From the NCBI RefSeq assembly GCF_018141005.1, contig NZ_CP046582.1:434001-498000 (forward strand): DNA of 64,000 nucleotides, read 5' to 3'. A model generated the notes under the pieces. It was not told the DNA's origin and did not search any database. It was given only the letters and a program-made list of their open reading frames with translations. The stretch's first letter is position 1, and every line of letters starts with the position of its first letter. Of the stretch, positions 15,971 through 63,028 are shown one piece after another. Source of the DNA: Erwinia sp. E602. GTDB taxonomy: Bacteria; Pseudomonadota; Gammaproteobacteria; Enterobacterales; Enterobacteriaceae. Position numbers and translations under genes: made by a program.

Positions 15971-17353
15971 ATGAATAACTTATCTGAACGTTACCTGAAA
16001 ACCGGCGGCGATCCGCGCCCCCTGCCGGATTACGCTGCCCTGCGCGACGAGCTGGGCAAGCTGTCTCACCCCGCGCGACCGGACGTTAACTGGCCGCTGG
16101 TTGAAAAACGCTGCCTCTCGCTGTTCGAACATAACGGCGTCGAGCTGCAAACGGCGGCCTGGTACACCCAGGCTCGCGCGCAGCTGGGGGGCCTTGCCGG
16201 GCTGAACGAGGGGCTGGCAATCCTTGAGGCGTTAATCAGCCATCAGTGGGGCAGCCTGTGGCCGCAGCAGGCGCATGCCCGGGTGGAGATCCTGAGCACG
16301 CTCAGCCGTCGTTTGCAGCAGATGATGCGCACGCTGCCGGTCAGCTACGGCGACCTCGGCCAGCTGTACTGCGCAGAACAACAGCTCAATCGTCTGAACG
16401 AGGTATTGCAGCGCCTGGAGCTGCGGCACCTGAGCCAGTTCGATGCGCTGGCCGCGCTGATGCACACCAGCGCGGTGCGGCTGGAGAACAGCGATGCGGC
16501 GGCAGGCGACAATGCCGCGCCACCGCGAAATATCGTCCTGCCGGCTGGCGCGCAGCGCCTGTCTGGTGCTGAGCCGGTGGCTGAAATCCGGCCCGCCGCG
16601 ATCAAGTGGGTGTATGTTGCGCAGGCACAGCCGGAGCCTGATATCGCGTGCAATCCGGAAATATCGCCAAAGCCCGGCCGCTGGCTGCCCTTTGCCGCCG
16701 GTGTGCTCACCATGCTGGTACTGGGCGGGGCGGGGCAGTGGATTTGGCACCACCTGCAGCGGTCCGATCCGCGGGAAACGCAACTGCAGGCGTCCCTGTC
16801 GCCGCTGCCGCTGCCGCTCACCCCCGGGGAGGCTCAGGGGCTGAAACCTGAAAGCCTGTCTGCGGAGGACGTTGTCCGCCGTACGGAACAACAGCTGGCG
16901 CGCTTAACGGCGTTGCCCCCGGACGGGGCTCTGGAATTTGCTCAGCGGCTTATCCGCCAGGCACGGGCGCTTAACGTCGGTGATGCAGCAGTCAACACAA
17001 TAGCCACAGAGTGGCAGCAGCAGCTGAAGGCCGCGGCGCTGCCTGAAGAGGCACTGGACGGCTGGCAGCAGGGGATGGCGCAGTTACAGCAGCTGACGGC
17101 GAAGCTGAATGCCCTTGACGGCCAGCGCGGTAAATATATGACGGTCAGCGAGCTGAAATCGGTGGTGTATACCGTCACCCAGGCGTTCAACCGTTCGGTC
17201 CCCGCCGAAGAGCAGCTGCGCCTCTTTTCACTCAGCCCTTCCGACTTTCAGCGGCGGCAAGTGGAGCTGGCGCTGGAACAGCTGCAGAAGCGCTATTTTT
17301 TACTTAAACAAGAGAATACGGAAGATGAAGCTGAGGGGCGCGGCGCGGGGTGA
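15971..17353 (+). CDS. VasL/TagA-like membrane protein with ImpA_N domain
   Basis: 460 residues. Residues ~10-140 form an ImpA_N-type domain, as in TssA. A single transmembrane helix lies near 235-257 (WLPFAAGVLTMLVLGG), followed by a helical C-terminal VasL-type region rich in Gln and Leu. Known proteins with this layout (TagA in enteroaggregative E. coli) cap the sheath at the opposite membrane and hold it extended. The layout and position at the operon end support such a role here; this is inference from domain order. It is the last T6SS gene. After it, 17354-17556 holds no gene I can support. Confidence 0.78.
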   Translation: MNNLSERYLKTGGDPRPLPDYAALRDELGKLSHPARPDVNWPLVEKRCLSLFEHNGVELQTAAWYTQARAQLGGLAGLNEGLAILEALISHQWGSLWPQQAHARVEILSTLSRRLQQMMRTLPVSYGDLGQLYCAEQQLNRLNEVLQRLELRHLSQFDALAALMHTSAVRLENSDAAAGDNAAPPRNIVLPAGAQRLSGAEPVAEIRPAAIKWVYVAQAQPEPDIACNPEISPKPGRWLPFAAGVLTMLVLGGAGQWIWHHLQRSDPRETQLQASLSPLPLPLTPGEAQGLKPESLSAEDVVRRTEQQLARLTALPPDGALEFAQRLIRQARALNVGDAAVNTIATEWQQQLKAAALPEEALDGWQQGMAQLQQLTAKLNALDGQRGKYMTVSELKSVVYTVTQAFNRSVPAEEQLRLFSLSPSDFQRRQVELALEQLQKRYFLLKQENTEDEAEGRGAG

Positions 17354-17556
17354 GGCGCGTTCCGGGATTTGCATCAAGGCGGGCTTGCGCTGGTGAACAT
17401 CGGAGATGCTACCGATCGCTGTCGGGAAGGTTGCAGCGTGCCGGGCGTTGCATCAATGCAGGGGTACGCAAGGAAGGCCGCTGAGGCGCTCTTTTTAGAT
17501 CTCTGATGACCTGCCAGCGTTCACGCCCCGGTGAAGCCGGTGGTGTGGAGCATCCA

Positions 17557-17592
17557 ATAAAAAGCGCCTGGCCCATAGGGACAAGCGCTTTC
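17557..17592 (-). terminator. Rho-independent terminator of dusB-fis
   Basis: On the minus strand AAAGCGC pairs with GCGCTTT across an imperfect loop and is followed by TTATTGG. It lies 25 bases past the fis stop and also separates fis from the convergent T6SS operon. Confidence 0.7.
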
Positions 17593-17616
17593 GAAACAAC
17601 ATGATAGCCGGGGCTA

Positions 17617-17913
17617 TTAGTTCATGCCGTATTTTTTCAGTTTCTTACGCAGTGTACCGCGGTTGATACCCATCATCAGGGCTGCACGGGTCTGGTTGCC
17701 ACGGGTGTATTGCATCACCATGTCCAACAGAGGCTGTTCTACTTCAGCCAGTACCAGCTCATACAGGTCATTAACGTCCTGACCGTTCAGTTGAGCAAAA
17801 TAGTTCTTCAGTGCCTGTTTAACCGAATCACGCAGTGGCTTTTGGGTCACCTGATCCTGTGAGTTAACGGTTGAAACAGTCAGTACGTCAGAATTTACGC
17901 GTTGTTCGAACAT
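17617..17913 (-). CDS. fis: Fis, nucleoid-associated regulator
   Basis: 98 residues, apparently identical to the E. coli protein along its length as far as I recall it. The N-terminal beta-hairpin arms (residues ~10-30) and C-terminal helix-turn-helix (about 73-95, [22 protein letters not shown]) are present. Fis bends AT-rich DNA and activates rRNA and tRNA promoters in fast growth. It is the second gene of the dusB-fis operon, 25 bases after dusB. Confidence 0.98.
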
Positions 17914-50793: not shown

Positions 50794-51042
50794 ACATTTT
50801 GTGACTGCAAAAAAAGCGAAACGTCTTCCGCTTTGGCATTTTCCCCGTCAAATCGGCGTTCCCTGCCCCACAAGCTGGCTAAAATCTGGTAAACTGTGTG
50901 TCACTTTGTGCCTATTGGCCGGGTAATGACGCGTGTATCCTGACTCGTTTTAGGGGCGGTCTATCTTCGGGCTAATGGCAACAATGAGTCGCCGCGTGGA
51001 TGGCTATTCGCAGTAATTTTCTCGATAAACTTGGAGGTTTAC

Positions 51043-51684
51043 ATGGCTGTCGCTGCCAACAAACGTTCGGTAATGACGCTGTTTTCTGGTCCGACTGACA
51101 TTTTTAGCCATCAGGTGCGTATCGTACTGGCTGAGAAAGGCGTGAGTGTCGAGATCGAGCAGGTTGAAACGGATAACCTGCCGCAGGATCTGATCGACCT
51201 CAACCCGTATCGTACCGTGCCAACGCTTGTCGATCGTGAACTGACGTTGTACGAGTCCCGCATCATCATGGAATACCTCGATGAGCGTTTCCCGCACCCT
51301 CCGCTGATGCCGGTTTACCCGGTTGCACGCGGTGAAAGCCGTCTGATGATGCACCGCGTCGAGCAGGACTGGTACAGCCTGATGTACAAAATTGAGCAGG
51401 GCACGGCGCAGGAAGCCGAGACCGCGCGCAAACAGCTGCGTGAAGAGCTGCTGGCGATTGCGCCACTGTTCGCCCGCACGCCGTTCTTTATGAGCGACGA
51501 GTTCAGCCTGGTTGACTGCTATCTGGCTCCGCTGCTGTGGCGTCTGCCGCTGCTGGGCATTGAGTTAATCGGTGCCGGTTCGAAAGAGCTGAAGGGCTAT
51601 ATGACCCGCGTCTTTGAGCGTGACTCCTTCCTGGCCTCGCTGACCGAAACAGAGCGTGAAATGCGCCTGCAAACGCGGGGCTAA
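51043..51684 (+). CDS. sspA: Stringent starvation protein A
   Basis: 213 residues, GST-like fold that binds RNA polymerase and modulates stationary-phase transcription, notably by keeping H-NS levels down. Start at 51043 has TTGGAGG 8 bases upstream. N-terminal MTLFSGPTDIFSHQVRIVLAEK and the PHP motif (FPHPPLMPVYP) are conserved. The ~310 bases upstream contain a TAAACT -10 (50890) without a clear -35. Confidence 0.98.
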   Translation: MAVAANKRSVMTLFSGPTDIFSHQVRIVLAEKGVSVEIEQVETDNLPQDLIDLNPYRTVPTLVDRELTLYESRIIMEYLDERFPHPPLMPVYPVARGESRLMMHRVEQDWYSLMYKIEQGTAQEAETARKQLREELLAIAPLFARTPFFMSDEFSLVDCYLAPLLWRLPLLGIELIGAGSKELKGYMTRVFERDSFLASLTETEREMRLQTRG

Positions 51685-51689
51685 GCCAG

Positions 51690-52190
51690 ATGGAAATGTC
51701 GCAACTTACCGCCCGTCGACCTTACCTGTTGCGCGCTTTCTATGAGTGGTTACTTGAAAACCAGCTGACGCCGCACCTGGTGGTTGATATTAATCTGCCT
51801 GGCGTCAGAGTACCGCTGGAGTACGCGCGCGATGGGCAGATCGTACTGAACATTGCGCCCGGTGCCGTGGGCAACCTTGAACTGGGCAACGATGACGTGA
51901 CCTTCAATGCCCGCTTCGGCGGCGTGCCGCGACACGTTTCTGTTCCACTGGCCGCCGTTCTGGCCATCTACGCCCGTGAAAACGGTGCCGGTACCATGTT
52001 TGAACCGGAACCGGCCTACGATGACGTCAGCGAGCATGATGCCGCTAACTTGGCGGACGACAGCAGTGAAACGGTGATGTCGGTGATCGATGGCGATCGC
52101 CCTGACGACAGCGTACCCGGCGATGATGCCGGCCCGGATGACGAGCCGCCGCCGCGCGGTGGGCGCCCGGCGCTGCGCGTGGTCAAATAA
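51690..52190 (+). CDS. sspB: SspB, ClpXP adaptor for ssrA-tagged proteins
   Basis: 166 residues. SspB domain (1-115) with PYLLRAFYEWLLENQLTPHLVVD, acidic flexible linker, and the ClpX-binding C-terminal tail RGGRPALRVVK. Five bases after sspA. Confidence 0.98.
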   Translation: MEMSQLTARRPYLLRAFYEWLLENQLTPHLVVDINLPGVRVPLEYARDGQIVLNIAPGAVGNLELGNDDVTFNARFGGVPRHVSVPLAAVLAIYARENGAGTMFEPEPAYDDVSEHDAANLADDSSETVMSVIDGDRPDDSVPGDDAGPDDEPPPRGGRPALRVVK

Positions 52191-52211: not shown

Positions 52212-52242
52212 CAAAAAAAACGGGCCGCATGGCCCGTTTTTT
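52212..52242. terminator. Bidirectional terminator between sspB and the diflavin reductase
   Basis: AAAAACGGGCC, GCAT, GGCCCGTTTTTT: U-runs on both strands, serving the two convergent operons. Confidence 0.92.
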
Positions 52243-52315: not shown

Positions 52316-54067
52316 TTAATAGACGTCGCGCAGGTAACGTTTTTCTTTCTTCAGCTGGTCGATGTAATCGCCCGCACGTTCCGCCGACATGCCGCCGTGC
52401 TGAACCACGATCTCATACAGCGCCCTGTCGACGTCCTTAGCCATGCGTGACGCATCGCCACAGACGTAGAAGCTGGCACCTTCTTCCAGCCAGGCAAACA
52501 GCTCAGCACCTTTTTCCAGCATGCGGGTCTGCACGTAGATTTTCTCGGCCTGATCGCGGGAGAACGCCAGGTCCAGGTGGGTCAGCAGGCCGCTTTCATG
52601 CCAGGCCAGCAGTTCATCCTGGTAGATATAGTCGTGTTCCTGATGCTGGTCGCCGAAGAACAGCCAGTTTTTGCCGGTGGCGCCTGCCGCCTCACGCTCC
52701 TGCAGGAAGGCGCGGAACGGTGCAATACCGGTGCCCGGGCCGATCATGATCATCGGCGCGGCGCTGTTGGCTGGCACGCGGAACGCTTTATTCGGCGAGA
52801 TAAAGATTGCCGGCTTGCCGCCACGGCCCACGCGCTCGGCCAGATAAGTGGAGCAGACGCCGTTACGCGCGCGTCCGGCGCTGTGGTAGCGCACCGACGC
52901 CACGGTCAGGTGCACCTGATTCGGGTGCGCCTTCGAGCTGGAGGAGATGGAGTACGCGCGGTACTGCAACGGACGCAGCAGGGTGACAAACTCTGCGCTG
53001 CTCAGCGTGCGGCTCAGATCCAGCTGCAGCAGGTCGAGGGTATCTTTGCCCCACAGCCATACGCCCAGCGCGTCCTTATCGTCATGCTGCAGCACGTGGC
53101 GCAGCTCCTGGTTGGTGGTGTTCTGGCCCACCCATTCGATCAGCTTGCGTGACGGCTCTGAGATTTCGAACTGATAGGTCAGCAGGTCACCCAGGCTACG
53201 GTCAAAGCCCGGCACCGGAGTCTGATAATCGGCTTTCAGCTGGGCCAGCAGCAGCTCTACCAGCAGCGGATCGTTGACCGGGATCACGCCCAGCGCATCA
53301 CCGGCTTCATACTTCAGGCCGCTGTCGGTGAGATCAAACTCAAAGTGACGGATCTCTTTGCCTGACGCGTCGCCGGAAAGGCGTTTGTTGGTCACCAGCG
53401 CAGAGGCGTACGGATTATTCTTGTTGCTGCCCGGAATTACCGGCGCTTCAGGGGCGTTTTCCAGCGCTGTGCCGCTGCTGCCGGCGCTGGCCGCAAACTG
53501 CGGCATCGAGCTGTCAATCCAGGCGCTGGACGGCTCTTCAAAATCGATGTCGCAGTCGATACGATCGTAAACGCGCTTCGCGCCCAGCTGCTCCAGGCGC
53601 ATATCGAAGAACTTCCCGGACTGGCAGAAGCCATCGTAGCTGGTATCACCAATCGCCAGTACCGCGAAGTGCATCTGCTCCAGACGCGGCGCGGTGCTGG
53701 CGGAAAGTGCCTGCCAGAACATTTCGGCGTTGTCCGGCATCTCACCTTCACCGTAGGTGGAGGTAACGATCAGCACGTGACGCATGCTGGCGAACACCTC
53801 GATGTCCACTTCACCCAACCCCTGAACGACCGGTACCAGGCCTTTGGCACGTGCGGCTTTTGCCGCAGTCTGGGCCAGCGCTTCGGCGTTGCCGGTTTGC
53901 GAACCGAACAGGATATGCAGTTGCGTGGTTGCCGCAGCGGCAGCACCGGCCTGCGGCTTGTCTTCCAGCACCAGCAGGCGCGAATGTAAACCGGCGAGGA
54001 AACCAGCCAGCCAGAATTTCTGCTCGCCATTGAATGGCGCGTCTTCAGGAATATAAGGAATTTTCAT
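52316..54067 (-). CDS. CysJ-like diflavin NADPH reductase, partner of the divergent glutamate synthase
   Basis: 583 residues. N-terminal helical lead (EQKFWLAGFLAGL, as in CysJ), then FMN flavodoxin domain (FGSQTGNAEALA at 54-65, TSTYGEGEMPDNA), FAD-binding ferredoxin-reductase domain (RAYSISSSSKA, GVCSTYLAE) and NADPH domain (GPGTGIAPFRAFLQER, FYVCGDASRMAKDVD), ending YLRDVY like CysJ. It would carry electrons NADPH-FAD-FMN-partner. No cysI or cysH is adjacent; it follows the large glutamate synthase gene by 86 bases on the same strand, at the site of gltD in E. coli. I therefore suggest it feeds that enzyme. The alternative is a second sulfite-reductase flavoprotein, acting with a CysI encoded elsewhere. 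No signal peptide, so cytoplasmic. Confidence 0.85.
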   Translation of the reverse strand: MKIPYIPEDAPFNGEQKFWLAGFLAGLHSRLLVLEDKPQAGAAAAATTQLHILFGSQTGNAEALAQTAAKAARAKGLVPVVQGLGEVDIEVFASMRHVLIVTSTYGEGEMPDNAEMFWQALSASTAPRLEQMHFAVLAIGDTSYDGFCQSGKFFDMRLEQLGAKRVYDRIDCDIDFEEPSSAWIDSSMPQFAASAGSSGTALENAPEAPVIPGSNKNNPYASALVTNKRLSGDASGKEIRHFEFDLTDSGLKYEAGDALGVIPVNDPLLVELLLAQLKADYQTPVPGFDRSLGDLLTYQFEISEPSRKLIEWVGQNTTNQELRHVLQHDDKDALGVWLWGKDTLDLLQLDLSRTLSSAEFVTLLRPLQYRAYSISSSSKAHPNQVHLTVASVRYHSAGRARNGVCSTYLAERVGRGGKPAIFISPNKAFRVPANSAAPMIMIGPGTGIAPFRAFLQEREAAGATGKNWLFFGDQHQEHDYIYQDELLAWHESGLLTHLDLAFSRDQAEKIYVQTRMLEKGAELFAWLEEGASFYVCGDASRMAKDVDRALYEIVVQHGGMSAERAGDYIDQLKKEKRYLRDVY

Positions 54068-54153
54068 AATGTCGTGTAACTCAATCCCGTTTCGTCGTGT
54101 TCAGTTACCCCTGACCGCCGGGCGCGCCGGCCGTCAGGGTTCTGGTCTTATTA

Positions 54154-57100
54154 TCAGGCTAATTTGCCCACTGCGGCAGCCAGTTCCGGCAGTGCGGCAC
54201 GGGCAAACAGTTCTTCAAAGTCCGGCAGCCCGCCCAGCACCTCGCGGTTACGCGCGTCCTGGTAAATGATCCAGCCGTAGGTGGCCAGGCTGTCCATCGA
54301 GCGAATATTACGCTGGGTCAGGGCAGCCTTATAGTCCGCCATACGCTTGGCGGCGATCAGGCAGGAGAGCTGCTCATCGCTGTAGTTCTCAATCGCCGCG
54401 CGGGCATGACGCTGCAGTTTGGCGATCAGCGCGAAGTCTTCGGTCATCAGCAGGTTACGCACCGCTTTCTCGACCGCCGCATCGTCCACCGCGGTGCCTT
54501 TCGGCAGACGGGAGAGCGCCACCTGCTGCGCCGAGCTCAGCACGGTGTAGTTGTTCAGCAGCACCAGCATTTCCGGGGTATCGGTCGCGCCGTAGGCCGG
54601 AACGGCACCGTTGGCGATCGGCTTACCTTCACGCCAGGCCGCTTTAAACTTGCTGACCTGGTGCGCTGCCAGCGCGGTAGAGAGCTCTTCCAGCAGATCC
54701 TTACGGGCTTTCGCCTTAAGGATCTCCCCGCTGTCCTGATACAGCAGCAGCGAACGCGGCATCACGTAGACAAAGTGCTGGCTCTCGCTCTCCCAGTGGT
54801 CAAGTAACCACTGCGCGCGCGCGGAGCCGGTGGCAGCCAGGTGCCACTGCAGCAGGGTCACCACCGCCTGCAGGTGCACGCGGGCCATCTCATTATCGTC
54901 GGTAATGCTGCCCAGCAGCACCGAATCCGCCGCAACGGAGCCGGCCAGCGTGCCGTACGGGTCGTACTGGTAGGCGAAGCCGCCGCTCATGCCGTTACCG
55001 AAGCCGGTACCGTAGGTACCGAGGTTCAGCACCGCGCCGTTGGTCATGTATTCGCAGCAGAAGTCGCCCACGCCTTCCACCACCGCGGTGGCGCCGGAGT
55101 TACGTACCGCGAAGCGGTCACCTGCCTGGCCCTGCACGAACAGACGTCCGCCGGTGGCGCCAAACAGCGCAAAGTTGCCCACCAGCACGTTGCCTTCGGC
55201 ATCCTGCGAACCGCCGCCCGGCGACAGCACGATAATTTCGCCACCGCACTGGCCTTTGCCCACGCCATCGTTACAGGTGCCGGAGTGGGTCATCATCATG
55301 CCGTCGTTACAGAACACGCCGTAAGACTGGCCGGCAGAGCCGCTGGTGGCGATGGTTACGGTGCGTGGCGCCAGGTAGCGACGGCCGCGATCGTCTTGCA
55401 GCACGCCAGGCAGGGCATTCAACTGTTCTGCGCTCAGCTGATGGTTCAGCCTGCGTTCGATATCGATCGCCAGTTGACCGCCGACGCTCTTGTTACGGTT
55501 GTTCAGCGTCACGCCGTCACCCAGCTGAATATCGCTGGTGCGGGTGGCGACCAGCTGACCGTCGAGCAGCGCTACCCAGCCGTCGTCCAGCTCGAAATCT
55601 TTCTCCAGATAGACCGGACGGGCAATTTTCACTTCCGGTACGACGGTCAGCATGGCGCGCAGATCAAGGCGGCCCACTTCCAGCGGGTGGTCCATCAGGT
55701 GCAGCAGGTCGGAACGTCCGCGGGCTTCGCGCAGCGAGCGCAGGCCAAGACGGGCCAGCATTTCACGCACTTCCTGCGCCACGTTGATGAAGTACTGCGC
55801 CAGCTGCCGCGGATCGCCGTCAAAGGCCTCCGCGTTGGTGGTCAGGCCGGCCGGGCACTTCACGTTACAGTTCTTCGCCATCACGCACTTCAGCATCATC
55901 AGCGCGGTGGTACCAAATTCGAAGCTGTCGCCGCCGAGCAGCGCGGATTTCACCACGTCGCTGCCGGTCTGCTGTGCGCCGGAGCAGCGCAGCAGCACCT
56001 TCTCACGCAGGCCGTTGGCGCACAGCGCCTGGTGCACTTCGGCGATGCCGATCTCGGCCACGCGGCCGGTGTACTTCAGGCTGGTGACCGAGGCTGCGCC
56101 GGTACCGCCGGTGTTGCCGGCGACGTTGATCACGTCCGCGCCGGCTTTCGCCACGCCGACGGCGATGGTGCCGATCCCTTCTGAGGAGACCAGCTTAACG
56201 ATCACCTTCACGCGCGCGGCTTTACAGTCGTGGATCAGCTGGGCGAGATCCTCGATCGAGTAGGTGTCATGGTGCGGCGGCGGGGAAACCAGCTCCACGC
56301 CTGGCGTACCGCCACGCGCGGCCGCGATCTCTACCGTTACTTTTGGTGACGGCAGCTGGCCGCCTTCGCCGGGTTTAGCCCCCTGGCCGATTTTGATCTC
56401 CAGCTCTTCCAGCATCGGATCGGCCAGGTACGCCGCCCAGACGCCGAAGCGGCCGGACGCCAGCTGTTTAATCCGTGACGCGCGGATGGTGCCGTGACGG
56501 GAGTAGTGCTCACCGCCTTCACCGCAGTTGCTCATGCCGCCGACCATATTGGTACCGTGTGCGACCGCTTCGTGCGCCGGGGCGACCAGCGCACCGTGGC
56601 TCATTGCACCGGACGCAAAGGTGCGGGTGATCTCATGGGCCGGCTGCACCTCGCTTAACGGCAGCGACGGCAGGGTGGTGAAGATGCGCGACAGATAATC
56701 GGCCGCGTCGCCGGTAGCGGCGATCTGCAGGCCGTCGGCGGTGACTTCAGCGTGCTCAATCTGCCCGGCAAAACGGTTTTTCAGCGCGGTGGCCAGGGTC
56801 TGCAGACGCTCCGCGAGCGGCTTCAGCCCCTCGATGGCGTCAGTGAGGCGCAGCGTAAAGCGTCCTGCTTCGCCAGCAACGGCTTCGCACACCAGACCAC
56901 GCACGGCAAAGCCGTTGTTGACCAGCGAATAGCGGCCCAGCTTGCGGCTGAACTCGGTCAGGCTGTCGACGTGGGTCAGGTCGCACGGGAAGGCCAGAAT
57001 ATCGCGCAACGCGGCCGGACGGCGTTTACGCTCTTCATGCATCAGGCTGGAGAACTGACGGTAGTCCGGCGTGATGGTAAAGGCGTCGATCACCGCGTCA

Positions 57101-59685
57101 GGGATGCGCTCAAAGCTGCTGTCCTCAAAGGCTTTCGCTTTGATGTTGAAGGCGTTATCCAGCCGTGCCAGGGTCAGCAGGCGAATAAACTGATCTTCTT
57201 CGCGTGCTTTGTCGGAGAAGCGGATCGGCTGCTCCGTCATATCAATAAAGGTGCGCACGGCGATGGTGCCGTAAGAGTGGCCCGCGCCTTCCGCACGCTC
57301 TTTAAACAGGCCGAGCAACGGCACTTCCGCTTCGCCCTGAATTCTCAGTGCGCTCTGATGCCAGTCCACCGCCATCTGGGCGATGGAGGCAAAGCCCGCG
57401 CCACCGACCGGAGTCTTGATGTTCGGGAAGTATTTTTTCAGCACGCGGTCTTCGGTATTCAGGAAGTTCGGCTCGAAGAATTCACCACAGCTGTAGCTCT
57501 CTACGGTACAGAGGCCGACTTTACCCATGGTTTTCATCAGCGCTTTTTCAGCCGCTTTGGCATAGCGCTTAAAGGCCTTGTTACCCTCTTCGCCTTCGCC
57601 GTACTTCTCTTCGGCACGCATCTGCACGCCGAGCGGATAGACGGCTGAGGCACCGAAGCCCAGCGTAGCGGCGATATGGTGTGAAGAGATGCTCTGGCCG
57701 CTCTCCACCACCAGCGAAACGTCAAGACGCAGGCCTTCCTGCACCAGGCGCTGGTTGATCGCTGACACCACCAGCAGCATCGGCATCGCCGCGCGGGTGG
57801 AGGAGATATGACGGTCGGTCAGGACGGCGATGCCGCCCTGTTCGCGGGCGAAGTCCACCACCTGCTGGGCCAGATCGTCGATGGCCTGTTCCAGCGCGTC
57901 GGCGTTGGCCTGACGGCTCTGTGCATCGCTGCCGGTGACCGGCAGGTAGAGCATCTCGAAGCGCGCATACGGCGCCACGTCCTGCTCGCGCAGCTGCAGC
58001 ATATCAAGGTGGGTCAGGATCGGGCTATTCACCACGATCTGACGGCCTTTGCTGCGGCCCAGATGCGGCTTGGCACCGAGCGCCACGCGCAGGGTCATGC
58101 CGTCTGCCTCGCGGATCGAGTCCAGCGGTGGGTTGGTGACCTGGGCAAAACGCTGGGAGAAGTAGTGCGCCATGCCGCCTTCGTGGTCGGACAGGGCGTT
58201 GATGGCGTTGCCGTAACCCATCGCCGAGATCTTCTCAGCGCCGGTGGTCAGCATCGGGTCCATCATGAACTTGAAGCTTTCCTGGTTGTAGTAGTAGGCC
58301 ACAAACCGCTGGTAGGTCTTCAGATCGCCGCTGTAGCGCAGCGGGGAACCCTGTTTCTCGGCCGGGATCACCGGCAGGTCCTGCAGGGTCACGCGCGACT
58401 GTGCCAGCAGCGCCGGGTAGTCCTGTTCGGCGGCCAGCTTCTCCAGCGCTTCCACGGTGGTGTAGCTGCGCCGATCGTTATGGTCCCAGTAGAGCATACC
58501 GCCGGCTTCAATACGGCCGCGGCGCAGTACGCTCTCCGGTGGGAAGGCAATCTGGCCGGCTTCAGACATCGCGCCGATATAGTCAGCGGTTTCCACCGAA
58601 CGCAGCGGGCGCAGGCCAAGGCGGTCAAGACGCGCGCCGATGATTTCACCGTTACCGAAGATCAGCGCCGCCGGGCCGTCATTCTTCTCTTCATACAGCG
58701 AGAAGTACTCAAGCATCGCGCGCACGTTGGCGGACAGCGCGTCATCGTTTTCCCAGGCCGGCGGCATCATCGATACCACGGCGAGGATCAGGTCGAGGTT
58801 ATCTTCCATCAGGCGGCTGTGAATGCTCTGGTCAAGGCGCGAGCTGTCGGACTGCCCTTTAGGGCGAACGATAGTCTTACCGCGCGCGGAGGCCAGCGCC
58901 GACTCCGCAATGCGGTTTTTACGATCGGTATTCAGTTCACCGTTGTGCGCCATCAGGCGGAACGGCTGTGCCATGGTGGTGTGCGGATCGGTGTTGGTGG
59001 AGAAACGGGTATGGAAAAACAGGCCGCGTACGCCGTGATCGGGATCGGTCAGATCCTTAAAGTAAGGGATCACTTCATTAGAGTTGAGGCGCGCTTTAAA
59101 TACCTGGGTGCGTGATGAGAGCGACAGCGGGTAGAGGCCGCCAAATTCACTTTCGGTAAAGGCACGGGCTTCGATATCCAGCAGGGCGCGATAGATGCGC
59201 TTTTCGAAATCGGTTTGATCCGCAAGGTCTTGTGGCGCGGCAAACACCCACTGCACGATCGGCAACTGGGAAGGGATGGCGGCCGGGCGCAGCACGCTGG
59301 TGTCCAGCGGCATATCGCGCCTGAGGATCACCGGCAGGCCATGTTTTGCCAGCGTCTCTTCGACCAGCTGCTCCGCATTGGTGCGCAGTGCACCATCTTT
59401 GGGCACAAAGAAGTTGCCGACGCCAAACTGGCCGAACTCCAGCGGCAGGCCGGTTACCTTGCGGAAGAACTGCAGGGAGATATCGACGTTAACGCCGGCA
59501 CCATCGCCCACGCCCTCTGCTGACATCCCGCCACGATGCGGCACGGTGCACAGCGCGCTGTGCGCCATCCGGAGGACCTCGTGGGTTTGCTCGCCGTCCT
59601 TACGGGTAATAAAACCTACGCCACAACTGTCGCTCTCTTGAGCGGGATCATATAAGCCATAGGGATAAGGTTTTGAACTGGACAT
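54154..59685 (-). CDS. gltB: Divergent long glutamate synthase large chain
   Basis: 1843 residues against about 1486 for E. coli GltB. The N-terminal glutaminase domain has the nucleophile at Cys21 (SDSCGVGFITR), implying a 20-residue propeptide. A central domain, then the FMN/synthase domain (MSHGALVAPAHEA at ~1028, GQGAKPGEGGQLPSPKV, SPPPHHDTYSIEDLAQL) and the GXGXG beta-helix (~1480-1570, ending MSGGFAY) follow. The iron-sulfur cysteines are C1267, C1273 and C1277, CX5CX3C rather than the usual CX5CX4C, and DGGLKTG is SGAQQTG. There is an extra ~100 residues before the synthase domain (~893-1020) and a C-terminal extension of ~150. AAGGAGG precedes the start. Expected reaction: glutamine + 2-oxoglutarate to two glutamate, cytoplasmic. 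Electron donor probably the diflavin protein downstream. Control: possible NtrC/sigma-54 region upstream. Confidence 0.9.
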   Translation of the reverse strand: MSSSKPYPYGLYDPAQESDSCGVGFITRKDGEQTHEVLRMAHSALCTVPHRGGMSAEGVGDGAGVNVDISLQFFRKVTGLPLEFGQFGVGNFFVPKDGALRTNAEQLVEETLAKHGLPVILRRDMPLDTSVLRPAAIPSQLPIVQWVFAAPQDLADQTDFEKRIYRALLDIEARAFTESEFGGLYPLSLSSRTQVFKARLNSNEVIPYFKDLTDPDHGVRGLFFHTRFSTNTDPHTTMAQPFRLMAHNGELNTDRKNRIAESALASARGKTIVRPKGQSDSSRLDQSIHSRLMEDNLDLILAVVSMMPPAWENDDALSANVRAMLEYFSLYEEKNDGPAALIFGNGEIIGARLDRLGLRPLRSVETADYIGAMSEAGQIAFPPESVLRRGRIEAGGMLYWDHNDRRSYTTVEALEKLAAEQDYPALLAQSRVTLQDLPVIPAEKQGSPLRYSGDLKTYQRFVAYYYNQESFKFMMDPMLTTGAEKISAMGYGNAINALSDHEGGMAHYFSQRFAQVTNPPLDSIREADGMTLRVALGAKPHLGRSKGRQIVVNSPILTHLDMLQLREQDVAPYARFEMLYLPVTGSDAQSRQANADALEQAIDDLAQQVVDFAREQGGIAVLTDRHISSTRAAMPMLLVVSAINQRLVQEGLRLDVSLVVESGQSISSHHIAATLGFGASAVYPLGVQMRAEEKYGEGEEGNKAFKRYAKAAEKALMKTMGKVGLCTVESYSCGEFFEPNFLNTEDRVLKKYFPNIKTPVGGAGFASIAQMAVDWHQSALRIQGEAEVPLLGLFKERAEGAGHSYGTIAVRTFIDMTEQPIRFSDKAREEDQFIRLLTLARLDNAFNIKAKAFEDSSFERIPDAVIDAFTITPDYRQFSSLMHEERKRRPAALRDILAFPCDLTHVDSLTEFSRKLGRYSLVNNGFAVRGLVCEAVAGEAGRFTLRLTDAIEGLKPLAERLQTLATALKNRFAGQIEHAEVTADGLQIAATGDAADYLSRIFTTLPSLPLSEVQPAHEITRTFASGAMSHGALVAPAHEAVAHGTNMVGGMSNCGEGGEHYSRHGTIRASRIKQLASGRFGVWAAYLADPMLEELEIKIGQGAKPGEGGQLPSPKVTVEIAAARGGTPGVELVSPPPHHDTYSIEDLAQLIHDCKAARVKVIVKLVSSEGIGTIAVGVAKAGADVINVAGNTGGTGAASVTSLKYTGRVAEIGIAEVHQALCANGLREKVLLRCSGAQQTGSDVVKSALLGGDSFEFGTTALMMLKCVMAKNCNVKCPAGLTTNAEAFDGDPRQLAQYFINVAQEVREMLARLGLRSLREARGRSDLLHLMDHPLEVGRLDLRAMLTVVPEVKIARPVYLEKDFELDDGWVALLDGQLVATRTSDIQLGDGVTLNNRNKSVGGQLAIDIERRLNHQLSAEQLNALPGVLQDDRGRRYLAPRTVTIATSGSAGQSYGVFCNDGMMMTHSGTCNDGVGKGQCGGEIIVLSPGGGSQDAEGNVLVGNFALFGATGGRLFVQGQAGDRFAVRNSGATAVVEGVGDFCCEYMTNGAVLNLGTYGTGFGNGMSGGFAYQYDPYGTLAGSVAADSVLLGSITDDNEMARVHLQAVVTLLQWHLAATGSARAQWLLDHWESESQHFVYVMPRSLLLYQDSGEILKAKARKDLLEELSTALAAHQVSKFKAAWREGKPIANGAVPAYGATDTPEMLVLLNNYTVLSSAQQVALSRLPKGTAVDDAAVEKAVRNLLMTEDFALIAKLQRHARAAIENYSDEQLSCLIAAKRMADYKAALTQRNIRSMDSLATYGWIIYQDARNREVLGGLPDFEELFARAALPELAAAVGKLA

Positions 59686-60601: not shown

Positions 60602-60618
60602 TGCACCGTTATTGTGCA
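60602..60618. promoter_or_regulatory. NtrC-like site, distal, close to arcB
   Basis: TGCACCGTTATTGTGCA matches 12 of 13 fixed positions of TGCACCNNNNTGGTGCA, the best of the three. It lies ~590 bp from the predicted glutamate synthase promoter and 21 bp upstream of the arcB -35, so it might affect either gene. Confidence 0.5.
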
Positions 60619-60638
60619 ACGTCGGATCGGATCCCGCG

Positions 60639-60666
60639 TTGGTGTTTTAGCCATTTCCGGTATGAT
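60639..60666 (+). promoter_or_regulatory. arcB promoter
   Basis: TTGGTG, 16-base spacer, TATGAT; expected transcript start ~22 bases before the arcB ATG. Good agreement with a sigma-70 promoter. Confidence 0.6.
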
Positions 60667-60694
60667 TACCGTATCGGAGCATAAGAGAATCTCT

Positions 60695-63028
60695 ATGAAA
60701 CAGATACGGTTATTAGCGCAGTACTACGTGGATTTGATGGTCAAACTGGGGCTGGTGCGCTTCTCGCTGCTGCTGGCATCGGCGCTGGTGGTGCTGGCGA
60801 TGATCGTGCAGATGGCGGTGACCATGGTATTGCGCGGCCATGTGGAAAGCATCGACATGGTGCGTTCGGTGTTTTTCGGCCTGCTGATCACCCCGTGGGC
60901 GGTCTATTTCCTGTCGGTGGTGGTGGAGCAACTGGAAGAGTCCCGCCAGCGGCTGGCCCGGCTGGTGGATAAGCTGGAAGAGATGCGCCACCGCGATCTG
61001 GAGCTGAACCAGCAGATGAAGGAGAACATCACCCAGCTCAACCAGGAGATCGCCGACCGTATTAAGGCGGAAGAGGCGCGTCTGCAGGTGATGACCCGCT
61101 TAAAAGAGGAGATGGCGCGGCGCGAGCAGGCGCAAATCGAACTGGAACAGCAGTCCTCCTTCTTACGCTCGTTCCTCGATGCCTCACCGGATCTGGTATT
61201 TTACCGCAACAGCGACCAGCAGTTCTCCGGCTGTAACCGTGCCATGGAGCTGCTGACCGGCAAAAGTGAAAAGCAGCTGATCGGCCTGACCCCGAACGAC
61301 GTGTATGACAATGATGCCGCAACCAAGGTGCTGGAAACCGATGAGAAGGTGTTCCGCCATAATGTGTCGCTGACCTATGAGCAGTGGCTACAGTATCCGG
61401 ACGGCCGCAAGACCTGTTTTGAGATCCGCAAAGTCCCTTATTACGATCGGGTTGGCAAGCGCAGCGGCCTGATGGGCTTCGGGCGCGATATTACCGAGCG
61501 TAAGCGCTACCAGGACGCGTTAGAGAACGCCAGCCGTGAGAAGACCACCTTTATCTCAACCATCAGCCACGAGCTGCGTACGCCGCTGAACGGCATCGTC
61601 GGTTTAAGCCGCATTCTGCTGGACACCGAACTGAATCAGGAGCAGCTGAAGTACCTGAAAACCATTCATGTCTCGGCAATCACCCTCGGCAATATCTTTA
61701 ACGACGTGATTGAGATGGACAAAATTGAACGGCGCAAGGTGCAGCTGGATAACCAGCCGATCGATTTCACCGGTTTTCTTGCCGACCTGGAAAACCTCTC
61801 AGGACTGCTGGCGGAGCCAAAAGGGCTCAGGTTCATCCTGTCGCCGCGGCAGCCGCTGCCGCACAAAATCATCGCCGACGGCACGCGGTTGCGGCAGATC
61901 CTGTGGAACCTGATCGGCAATGCGGTGAAGTTTACCCGCGAGGGCGAGATCGTGGTGCGGGTGGGCTACCGCGAGGGCGACATTCTGTGCTTTGAGGTGG
62001 AAGACTCCGGGATGGGCATCCCACAGGACGAGCAGGACAAAATTTTTGCCATGTATTATCAGGTGAAAGACCAGCGCGGCGGTAAACCGGCGACCGGTAC
62101 CGGTATCGGGCTGGCCGTTTCCCGGCGGCTGGCGCAGAACATGGGTGGCGACATTACGGTGCGCAGCGCGCCGGGTAAAGGCTCCTGCTTCACCCTGATG
62201 CTCAACGCCCCCAGGGTGGTGGAAGAGGTCGAGGACGAGCAGCCGGCAGACGATCTGCCGTTACCCGCGCTGCACGTGCTGCTGGTAGAGGATATTGAAC
62301 TGAACGTGGTGGTGGCCCGCTCGGTGCTGGAGAAGCTGGGCAACAGCGTTGAGGTGGCGATGACCGGCCAGGCGGCGCTGGATATGTTCGACCCGGATGA
62401 GTTCGATCTGGTGCTGCTGGATATCCAGCTGCCGGACATGACCGGGCTGGACGTGGCGCGGGCGATCCATCAACGCTATGCAGGGCAGCCGCTGCCGCCG
62501 CTGGTGGCCCTGACGGCGAACGTGCTGAAGGACAAACGTGAGTATCTGGATGCGGGCATGGATGACGTGCTGAGCAAGCCGCTGGCGGTGCCTGCGCTGA
62601 CCGCCACCATCAAAAAATACTGGGATTATCAGCCGGAGGGTGAACTGCCGGCAGAGGAGAGGATTATGGATGAGAAAAAACTGGCCTTACTCGATATCAC
62701 CATGCTCGAGCAGTATATCGAGCTGGTCGGGCCAAAGCTGATTCATCAGAGCATGGAGATGTTCGAACAGATGATGCCGGGTTATCTGGAGGTGCTGGAG
62801 TCGAACATGATGGCGCGTGACCAGAAAGGCATTGCGGAAGAGGGGCACAAAATTAAGGGTGCCGCCGGCTCTGTCGGTCTGGTGCACTTACAACAGGTGG
62901 CGAAGCAGATCCAGAGCCCGGAACTTCCCGCCTGGTGGGACAACGTGCAGGAGTGGATCGACGAACTCAGACACGAATGGCGTAATGATGTCGCGGTACT
63001 GCGTGAATGGGTGAATGAACGGGGCTAG
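60695..63028 (+). CDS. arcB: ArcB hybrid sensor kinase
   Basis: 777 residues from MKQIRLLAQYYVDLM at 60695 (E. coli 778); the frame extends 27 codons upstream over the promoter. Two N-terminal membrane helices, a coiled linker, PAS domain (~155-270), kinase domain with phospho-acceptor His in STISHELRTPLNGIVG (near 292), ATP-binding WNLIGNAVKF, receiver domain Asp in LVLLDIQLPDMTG, and HPt His in EEGHKIKGAAGSVG. Senses quinone redox state and phosphorylates ArcA under low oxygen. elbB, which follows arcB in E. coli, is missing. Confidence 0.98.
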   Translation: MKQIRLLAQYYVDLMVKLGLVRFSLLLASALVVLAMIVQMAVTMVLRGHVESIDMVRSVFFGLLITPWAVYFLSVVVEQLEESRQRLARLVDKLEEMRHRDLELNQQMKENITQLNQEIADRIKAEEARLQVMTRLKEEMARREQAQIELEQQSSFLRSFLDASPDLVFYRNSDQQFSGCNRAMELLTGKSEKQLIGLTPNDVYDNDAATKVLETDEKVFRHNVSLTYEQWLQYPDGRKTCFEIRKVPYYDRVGKRSGLMGFGRDITERKRYQDALENASREKTTFISTISHELRTPLNGIVGLSRILLDTELNQEQLKYLKTIHVSAITLGNIFNDVIEMDKIERRKVQLDNQPIDFTGFLADLENLSGLLAEPKGLRFILSPRQPLPHKIIADGTRLRQILWNLIGNAVKFTREGEIVVRVGYREGDILCFEVEDSGMGIPQDEQDKIFAMYYQVKDQRGGKPATGTGIGLAVSRRLAQNMGGDITVRSAPGKGSCFTLMLNAPRVVEEVEDEQPADDLPLPALHVLLVEDIELNVVVARSVLEKLGNSVEVAMTGQAALDMFDPDEFDLVLLDIQLPDMTGLDVARAIHQRYAGQPLPPLVALTANVLKDKREYLDAGMDDVLSKPLAVPALTATIKKYWDYQPEGELPAEERIMDEKKLALLDITMLEQYIELVGPKLIHQSMEMFEQMMPGYLEVLESNMMARDQKGIAEEGHKIKGAAGSVGLVHLQQVAKQIQSPELPAWWDNVQEWIDELRHEWRNDVAVLREWVNERG

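Follow-up and report, generated by a model that had tools for sequence, protein, structure and literature searches.

Glutamate synthase is central to nitrogen assimilation, and the locus described here raises the question of how such an enzyme is supplied with electrons when the gene for its small subunit GltD, a protein that carries FAD and two [4Fe-4S] clusters, is missing from its side. In the window, that is, the whole stretch of 64,000 nucleotides of Erwinia sp. E602 that was analysed (positions 434,001 to 498,000 of contig NZ_CP046582.1), an open reading frame for a long GltB of 1843 residues (54154-59685, minus strand) is followed on the same strand, after an intergenic gap of 86 bp (54068-54153), by one for a diflavin reductase of 583 residues (52316-54067), both assigned from the reading frames and their domains. 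The coordinates bear out the spacing given in the earlier note. An sspA-like gene (51031-51684, plus strand), whose GST-type product is taken for SspA, and sspB (51690-52190, plus strand, with a PF04386 match) lie on one side of the pair and arcB (60614-63028, plus strand) on the other, and gene order and Pfam domains agree with the claim that the pair is flanked by sspB and arcB with no gltD alongside. The GltD beta subunit, encoded together with GltB in the NADPH-dependent enzyme GltBD, is thereby absent from the locus. In E. coli K-12, arcB, yhcC, gltB and gltD are found together, in a compared stretch that ends short of sspB. According to a 2021 review (PMC8097209), the electrons of glutamate synthase are supplied by a GltD-type subunit or by ferredoxin, and the ferredoxin-dependent enzyme works without GltD; the word diflavin is absent from the review.

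The long protein has the Pfam domains GATase_2, Glu_syn_central, Glu_synthase and GXGXG in the order of the GltB family, and its score with the NCBIfam GltB model is just above the cut-off (1066.3 bits versus 1047). The counterpart of the catalytic Cys1 at the N-terminus of A. brasilense GltB is, by alignment, Cys21 (59623..59625, minus strand), and a propeptide of 20 residues would precede it; this position is a cysteine in 84 of 86 long-GltB rows and a gap in the remaining two. The three cluster cysteines are kept in all 86 rows, and so is Met489 (58219..58221, minus strand), the equivalent of the Met479 whose role is given in PMC8097209. The long GltB has both the catalytic N-terminal cysteine and the three Fe-S cysteines by which the GltB family is recognised, and its synthase motifs, among them QGAKPGEGGQLP and SPPPHHD, are invariant over 36 long and nine canonical rows. 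Domain order, catalytic cysteine, synthase motifs, cluster cysteines and the Met479 equivalent are all shared with the GltB-GltD enzymes of A. brasilense, B. subtilis and E. coli, while the core domains and the fold are also those of the ferredoxin-dependent glutamate synthase of Synechocystis (1ofd, 1llw).

The differences from GltB-GltD are, besides the absence of GltD, an altered iron-sulfur loop, a C-terminal domain and, usually, an insert. The loop (residues 1267-1277; 55855..55887, minus strand), which carries the cluster and is the entry point of electrons into GltB, reads Cx5Cx3C in 85 of 85 long GltBs and is one residue shorter than the Cx5Cx4C of the 10 canonical proteins, which is the [3Fe-4S] ligand spacing expected of the NADPH-dependent enzyme; the second loop cysteine is followed by asparagine in the long proteins and by histidine in all 10 canonical ones. 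The insert, of about 102 residues, lies before the synthase domain (residues 900-1003; 56677..56988, minus strand). An insert of about 100 residues is usual in long GltBs, and at least two members, from the Mycobacteriales genomes G627 and G634, are without it (approximately residues 900-1006), with the diflavin gene still adjoining. The C-terminal extension (residues 1650-1843; 54157..54738, minus strand) runs past the end of E. coli GltB, is kept across the long family and is predicted to be all-helical (pLDDT 89.1). Compared with the ferredoxin-dependent enzyme, the long GltB has this extension and a dedicated diflavin gene next to it. Residues 914-932 of the Synechocystis chain, some 20 residues within the synthase domain which we take to be the ferredoxin loop, have no counterpart at the contiguous residues 1062-1067 of the long GltB, and comparison with E. 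coli GltB shows no insertion at that site either. Canonical GltBs from plasmids are 33-37% identical to the long GltB among the matches listed. In a tree made with a quick method, and subject to a long-branch warning, 33 long GltBs are split from 10 canonical ones by a very long branch; the long proteins form a deep clade of their own.

The 583-residue protein is composed of the domains Flavodoxin_1, FAD_binding_1 and NAD_binding_1. Its flavin and pyridine-nucleotide motifs, kept over 86 diflavin rows, are those of NADPH diflavin reductases in the broad sense, and we assume that they mean NADPH rather than NADH. CysJ, the flavoprotein of NADPH-sulfite reductase, likewise has flavodoxin, FAD and NADPH domains, but the diflavin protein is in a clade of its own, has GltB and not CysI as its neighbour, and falls below both CysJ equivalog cut-offs (614.1 versus 668.15 and 514.8 versus 838 bits). 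It passes the generic model for the alpha subunit of sulfite reductase, PRK06214 (472.7 versus 432), and is 39-45% identical to 14 CysJ rows, all 14 of which have CysI beside them, compared with none of 86 long-GltB loci. When the search was reversed, a diflavin match with E <= 1e-120 was found in 68 of 398 genomes of a phylum sample, and the six with the highest scores all have a long GltB next to them. The lowest of these six has 569.9 bits and the match that follows, a CysJ adjoining CysI, has 556.1 bits; given that the bit score alone gives no dividing line, a tree was built. In it, the 32 GltB-paired rows are split, with support 100/99, from the CysJ and nitrate-reductase-fused rows; the remainder of the tree consists of 14 CysJ, eight nitrate-reductase-fused and two other rows, two rows having been left out beforehand. 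The nitrate-reductase-fused label stands for a frame of more than 1300 residues, with the exception of the annotated L110. These assimilatory nitrate reductase fusions join, by annotation, a related diflavin module to an enzyme other than CysI, and they differ from the present pair in being fused, in their catalytic part and in their clade. An orphan, fast-evolving diflavin gene on a Paracoccus plasmid (L109, 6917-8620) falls inside the GltB-paired clade. Within the stretch read there is no GltB near it, and genes of the glutamine synthetase family and for an aldehyde dehydrogenase are nearby; it is possibly a further swap of partner.

The rest of the genome, which is rated 100% complete and consists of two contigs, was searched for a canonical gltB and gltD, as the earlier note had proposed, and neither was found. 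It holds one full-length GltB, the two other PF01645 matches being short and weak (21 bits), and it has no match to PF14691, the N-terminal domain of GltD; the same search matches nine of 14 control genomes, including E. coli. Two proteins of the glutamate dehydrogenase family (PF00208) are present. This genome also carries a separate, adjacent pair of cysJ and cysI (C2:981633-985030), which speaks against the possibility, raised in the same note, that the diflavin protein works with CysI. A further diflavin module is part of a 1349-residue frame (C2:2278190-2279872), which its position in the tree, together with how a relative is annotated, leads us to take for a nitrate reductase fusion.

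The pairing is not confined to this genome. Scanning species genomes yielded 331 relatives, and in the best 80 of these, which were kept, the diflavin gene is directly downstream in all 80, at 55-90% identity. These 80 include Erwiniaceae, Comamonadaceae, Methylophilaceae, Rhizobiaceae and relatives, Paracoccaceae, Porticoccaceae and Nocardiaceae, and the long-GltB clade covers Alpha-, Beta- and Gammaproteobacteria and Actinomycetes. Given that the best 80 are the most similar ones, samples of genomes were drawn as well. Among the matches listed, a long GltB occurs in at least four of 148 genomes of the order sample, with the diflavin gene adjoining in four of four; the corresponding figures are six of 398 and six of six for the phylum sample, and six of 249 and six of six for a sample of the order of Rhodococcus. 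The samples overlap in part: G000, G097 and G021 are in both the order and the phylum sets, G176 is the genome of locus L067, and G097 shares coordinates with L017. On plasmids, the nine records with a long GltB (at least 60% identity) hold the nine best-ranked diflavin proteins and have the two genes adjoining in every case; Ketogulonicigenium vulgare accounts for four of these records. In the four plasmids that were read, the neighbouring genes otherwise show no apparent relationship. The gap between the two genes, measured in 85 loci, ranges from -4 to 189 bases, with a median of 41, and in Tsukamurella they overlap by four bases. In the control, gltD adjoins 12 of 13 canonical gltB loci, which span some kilobases only, and the diflavin gene none of the 13. 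Because the diflavin gene adjoins every long GltB checked, the pairing is not due to chance; the neighbourhood that the earlier note had asked for in other genomes is kept across two phyla and on plasmids. No description of a GltB-diflavin pair was found among the open-licence PMC papers listed; one of them, PMC7536287, gives for an Enterobacter a canonical gltBD together with cysIJ. The pairing is real and general and, as far as the open-licence literature shows, undescribed.

The history of the two genes was compared over 32 pairs. The GltB and diflavin trees share 20 of 29 splits and disagree in nine, and the pairwise distances of the two proteins correlate at 0.95, with a maximum of 0.81 after permutation. 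In both trees the Erwiniaceae group with the Comamonadaceae, apart from the other gammaproteobacterial members, and therefore the pair seems to have travelled together. Of 36 Enterobacterales loci, 33 have the pair between arcB and sspB and the other three are without an sspB match, so that the cassette appears to have taken the very place of gltBD within the Erwiniaceae. Corticibacter (L043, 19781-25509) and genome G021 (C1:515173-526494, L096) each have a canonical gltBD near the long pair, which suggests how a replacement could have begun. In Corticibacter, 61 bases separate the long GltB match from the start of the diflavin gene, and the canonical GltB lies further along.

The content of other holders of the pair varies. 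A match to E. coli GltD (E <= 1e-20) is present in 34 of 51 long-GltB genomes and absent from 17, namely 14 Erwiniaceae, two SAR92 MAGs and Methylobacillus rhizosphaerae; some of these are drafts, and two of them, G097 and G153, are apparently the same assembly, as their PF00208 coordinates agree. In two further Erwinia genomes the GltD matches are only in frames of 651-660 and 1056-1101 residues, which are longer than GltD and, by their length, probably AegA/YgfK-like. Most other matches are in GltD-sized frames, which indicates that many holders keep the canonical small subunit too, and with a match in 34 of 51 the pair is in many a second enzyme, perhaps a specialised one. PF14691 is absent from eight of 13 genomes searched and present in the five Mycobacteriales among them. 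PF00208 has a strong match in nine of 12 holders searched, so the pair need not be the sole route to glutamate; in the two SAR92 MAGs the matches are partial (25-26 bits, against a curated cut-off of 23.4). The draft genome of Pantoea eucrina (G159, L032) gave neither an E. coli GltD match nor a PF00208 match, and its path from ammonia to glutamate may run through the pair alone, although the large NAD-dependent glutamate dehydrogenase lay outside these searches.

By sequence this is a glutamate synthase of the GltB family; given that two features of GltBD and one sequence feature of the ferredoxin-dependent enzyme are lacking, the pair is called a diflavin-dependent glutamate synthase. We consider it probable, at roughly 0.87, that the pair is a third type of glutamate synthase that depends on NADPH, with the diflavin protein as its dedicated subunit instead of GltD or ferredoxin. 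This reading, which agrees with that of the earlier note, is well supported by comparative genomics: the pairing of the genes, the kept catalytic and cluster residues, the lack of a GltD-type domain in this genome and the co-inheritance of the pair are shown, and from them the electron transfer between the two proteins, the docking site and the product are inferred. From what is known of the families, NADPH would reduce the FAD of the diflavin protein and the electrons would move on to its flavodoxin-like FMN domain. This domain would then pass single electrons to the Fe-S cluster of the long GltB. CysJ delivers electrons one at a time to CysI, and the diflavin protein would act in the same manner, doing the job of GltD. 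Electrons from the cluster would reduce the FMN of GltB, as in the family, and this FMN would in turn reduce 2-iminoglutarate, formed from 2-oxoglutarate and glutamine-derived ammonia, with glutamate as the presumed product. The Fe-S loop and the C-terminal domain, together with the insert in most members, may form the docking surface, whose location is a guess given that the predicted core model is poor (pLDDT 66.4, pTM 0.56) and only single chains were folded. Counting against this reading are the missing insert in two paired members, the GltD match in 34 of 51 holders, the strong PF00208 match in nine of 12, the orphan L109, the nine discordant splits and the hairpin in the gap between the two genes. 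The fuller picture also appears quite probable, namely that this is a third, NADPH:diflavin-dependent class, with a flavin-only reductase as direct donor to the GltB cluster, encoded by a two-gene cassette that has spread between bacterial classes and onto plasmids and displaced gltBD at its site in the Erwiniaceae, that it is the only glutamate synthase found in its own genome, and that the shortened loop may hold a cluster of changed potential or type that suits a donor resembling flavodoxin.

Other explanations have to be weighed against this. The long GltB could in truth depend on ferredoxin or flavodoxin, with the diflavin protein only keeping a free carrier reduced. The ferredoxin-dependent enzyme of the review (PMC8097209) also lacks GltD, and in two Rhodococcus loci (L067 and L073, approximately 17258-17626) a free flavodoxin-like gene directly follows the diflavin gene; however, these are two of the best 80 of 331 relatives, the diflavin protein has an FMN domain of its own, and the Synechocystis stretch of about 20 residues is missing from the synthase domain, which makes a free carrier unlikely. 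That the diflavin protein serves CysI or nitrate reductase, and lies beside gltB for historical reasons, is very unlikely: although it scores like a CysJ (614 bits, cut-off 668), exceeds the threshold of the generic alpha-subunit model and is named a sulfite reductase subunit in the annotation of plasmids, the genome has both a cysJ beside its cysI and the 1349-residue frame with its own diflavin module, CysI is found in none of the 86 long-GltB loci, the diflavin clade is separate, and the adjacency to GltB is kept across phyla and plasmids.

The pair might also be a reductive amidotransferase for a different 2-oxo acid. The very deep branch, the altered Fe-S loop, the extra domains and the coexistence with a GltD match in 34 of 51 genomes would fit such a role, but it is quite unlikely, with synthase-site motifs invariant between long and canonical GltBs, with the long GltB as the only full GltB of its own genome, and with 17 of 51 holders lacking a GltD match, of which Pantoea eucrina also lacks PF00208.

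If glutamate synthase with a diflavin subunit is widespread, this would correct the picture of nitrogen metabolism in Pantoea, Erwinia and many rhizobia, whose automated annotations show a glutamate synthase protein and a stray sulfite reductase subunit. If true, it would also reveal how the two [4Fe-4S] clusters of GltD can be dispensed with when a flavin donor drives a complex Fe-S flavoenzyme.

The 86-bp gap between the two genes contains a strong hairpin (approximately 54109-54139, minus strand; -33.6 kcal/mol, z -4.4) without a terminator-like T-run, and no terminator-like site was found within the gap. The hairpin perhaps serves mRNA processing or the control of stability between the two genes, and it might part the two transcripts. 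The long GltB and the diflavin protein are likely encoded on one transcript. Terminator-like sites in the region number five, against a shuffle mean of 7.7, and are not in excess; one of them, a hairpin of 12 pairs with a T-run, follows the diflavin gene (52215..52242, minus strand).
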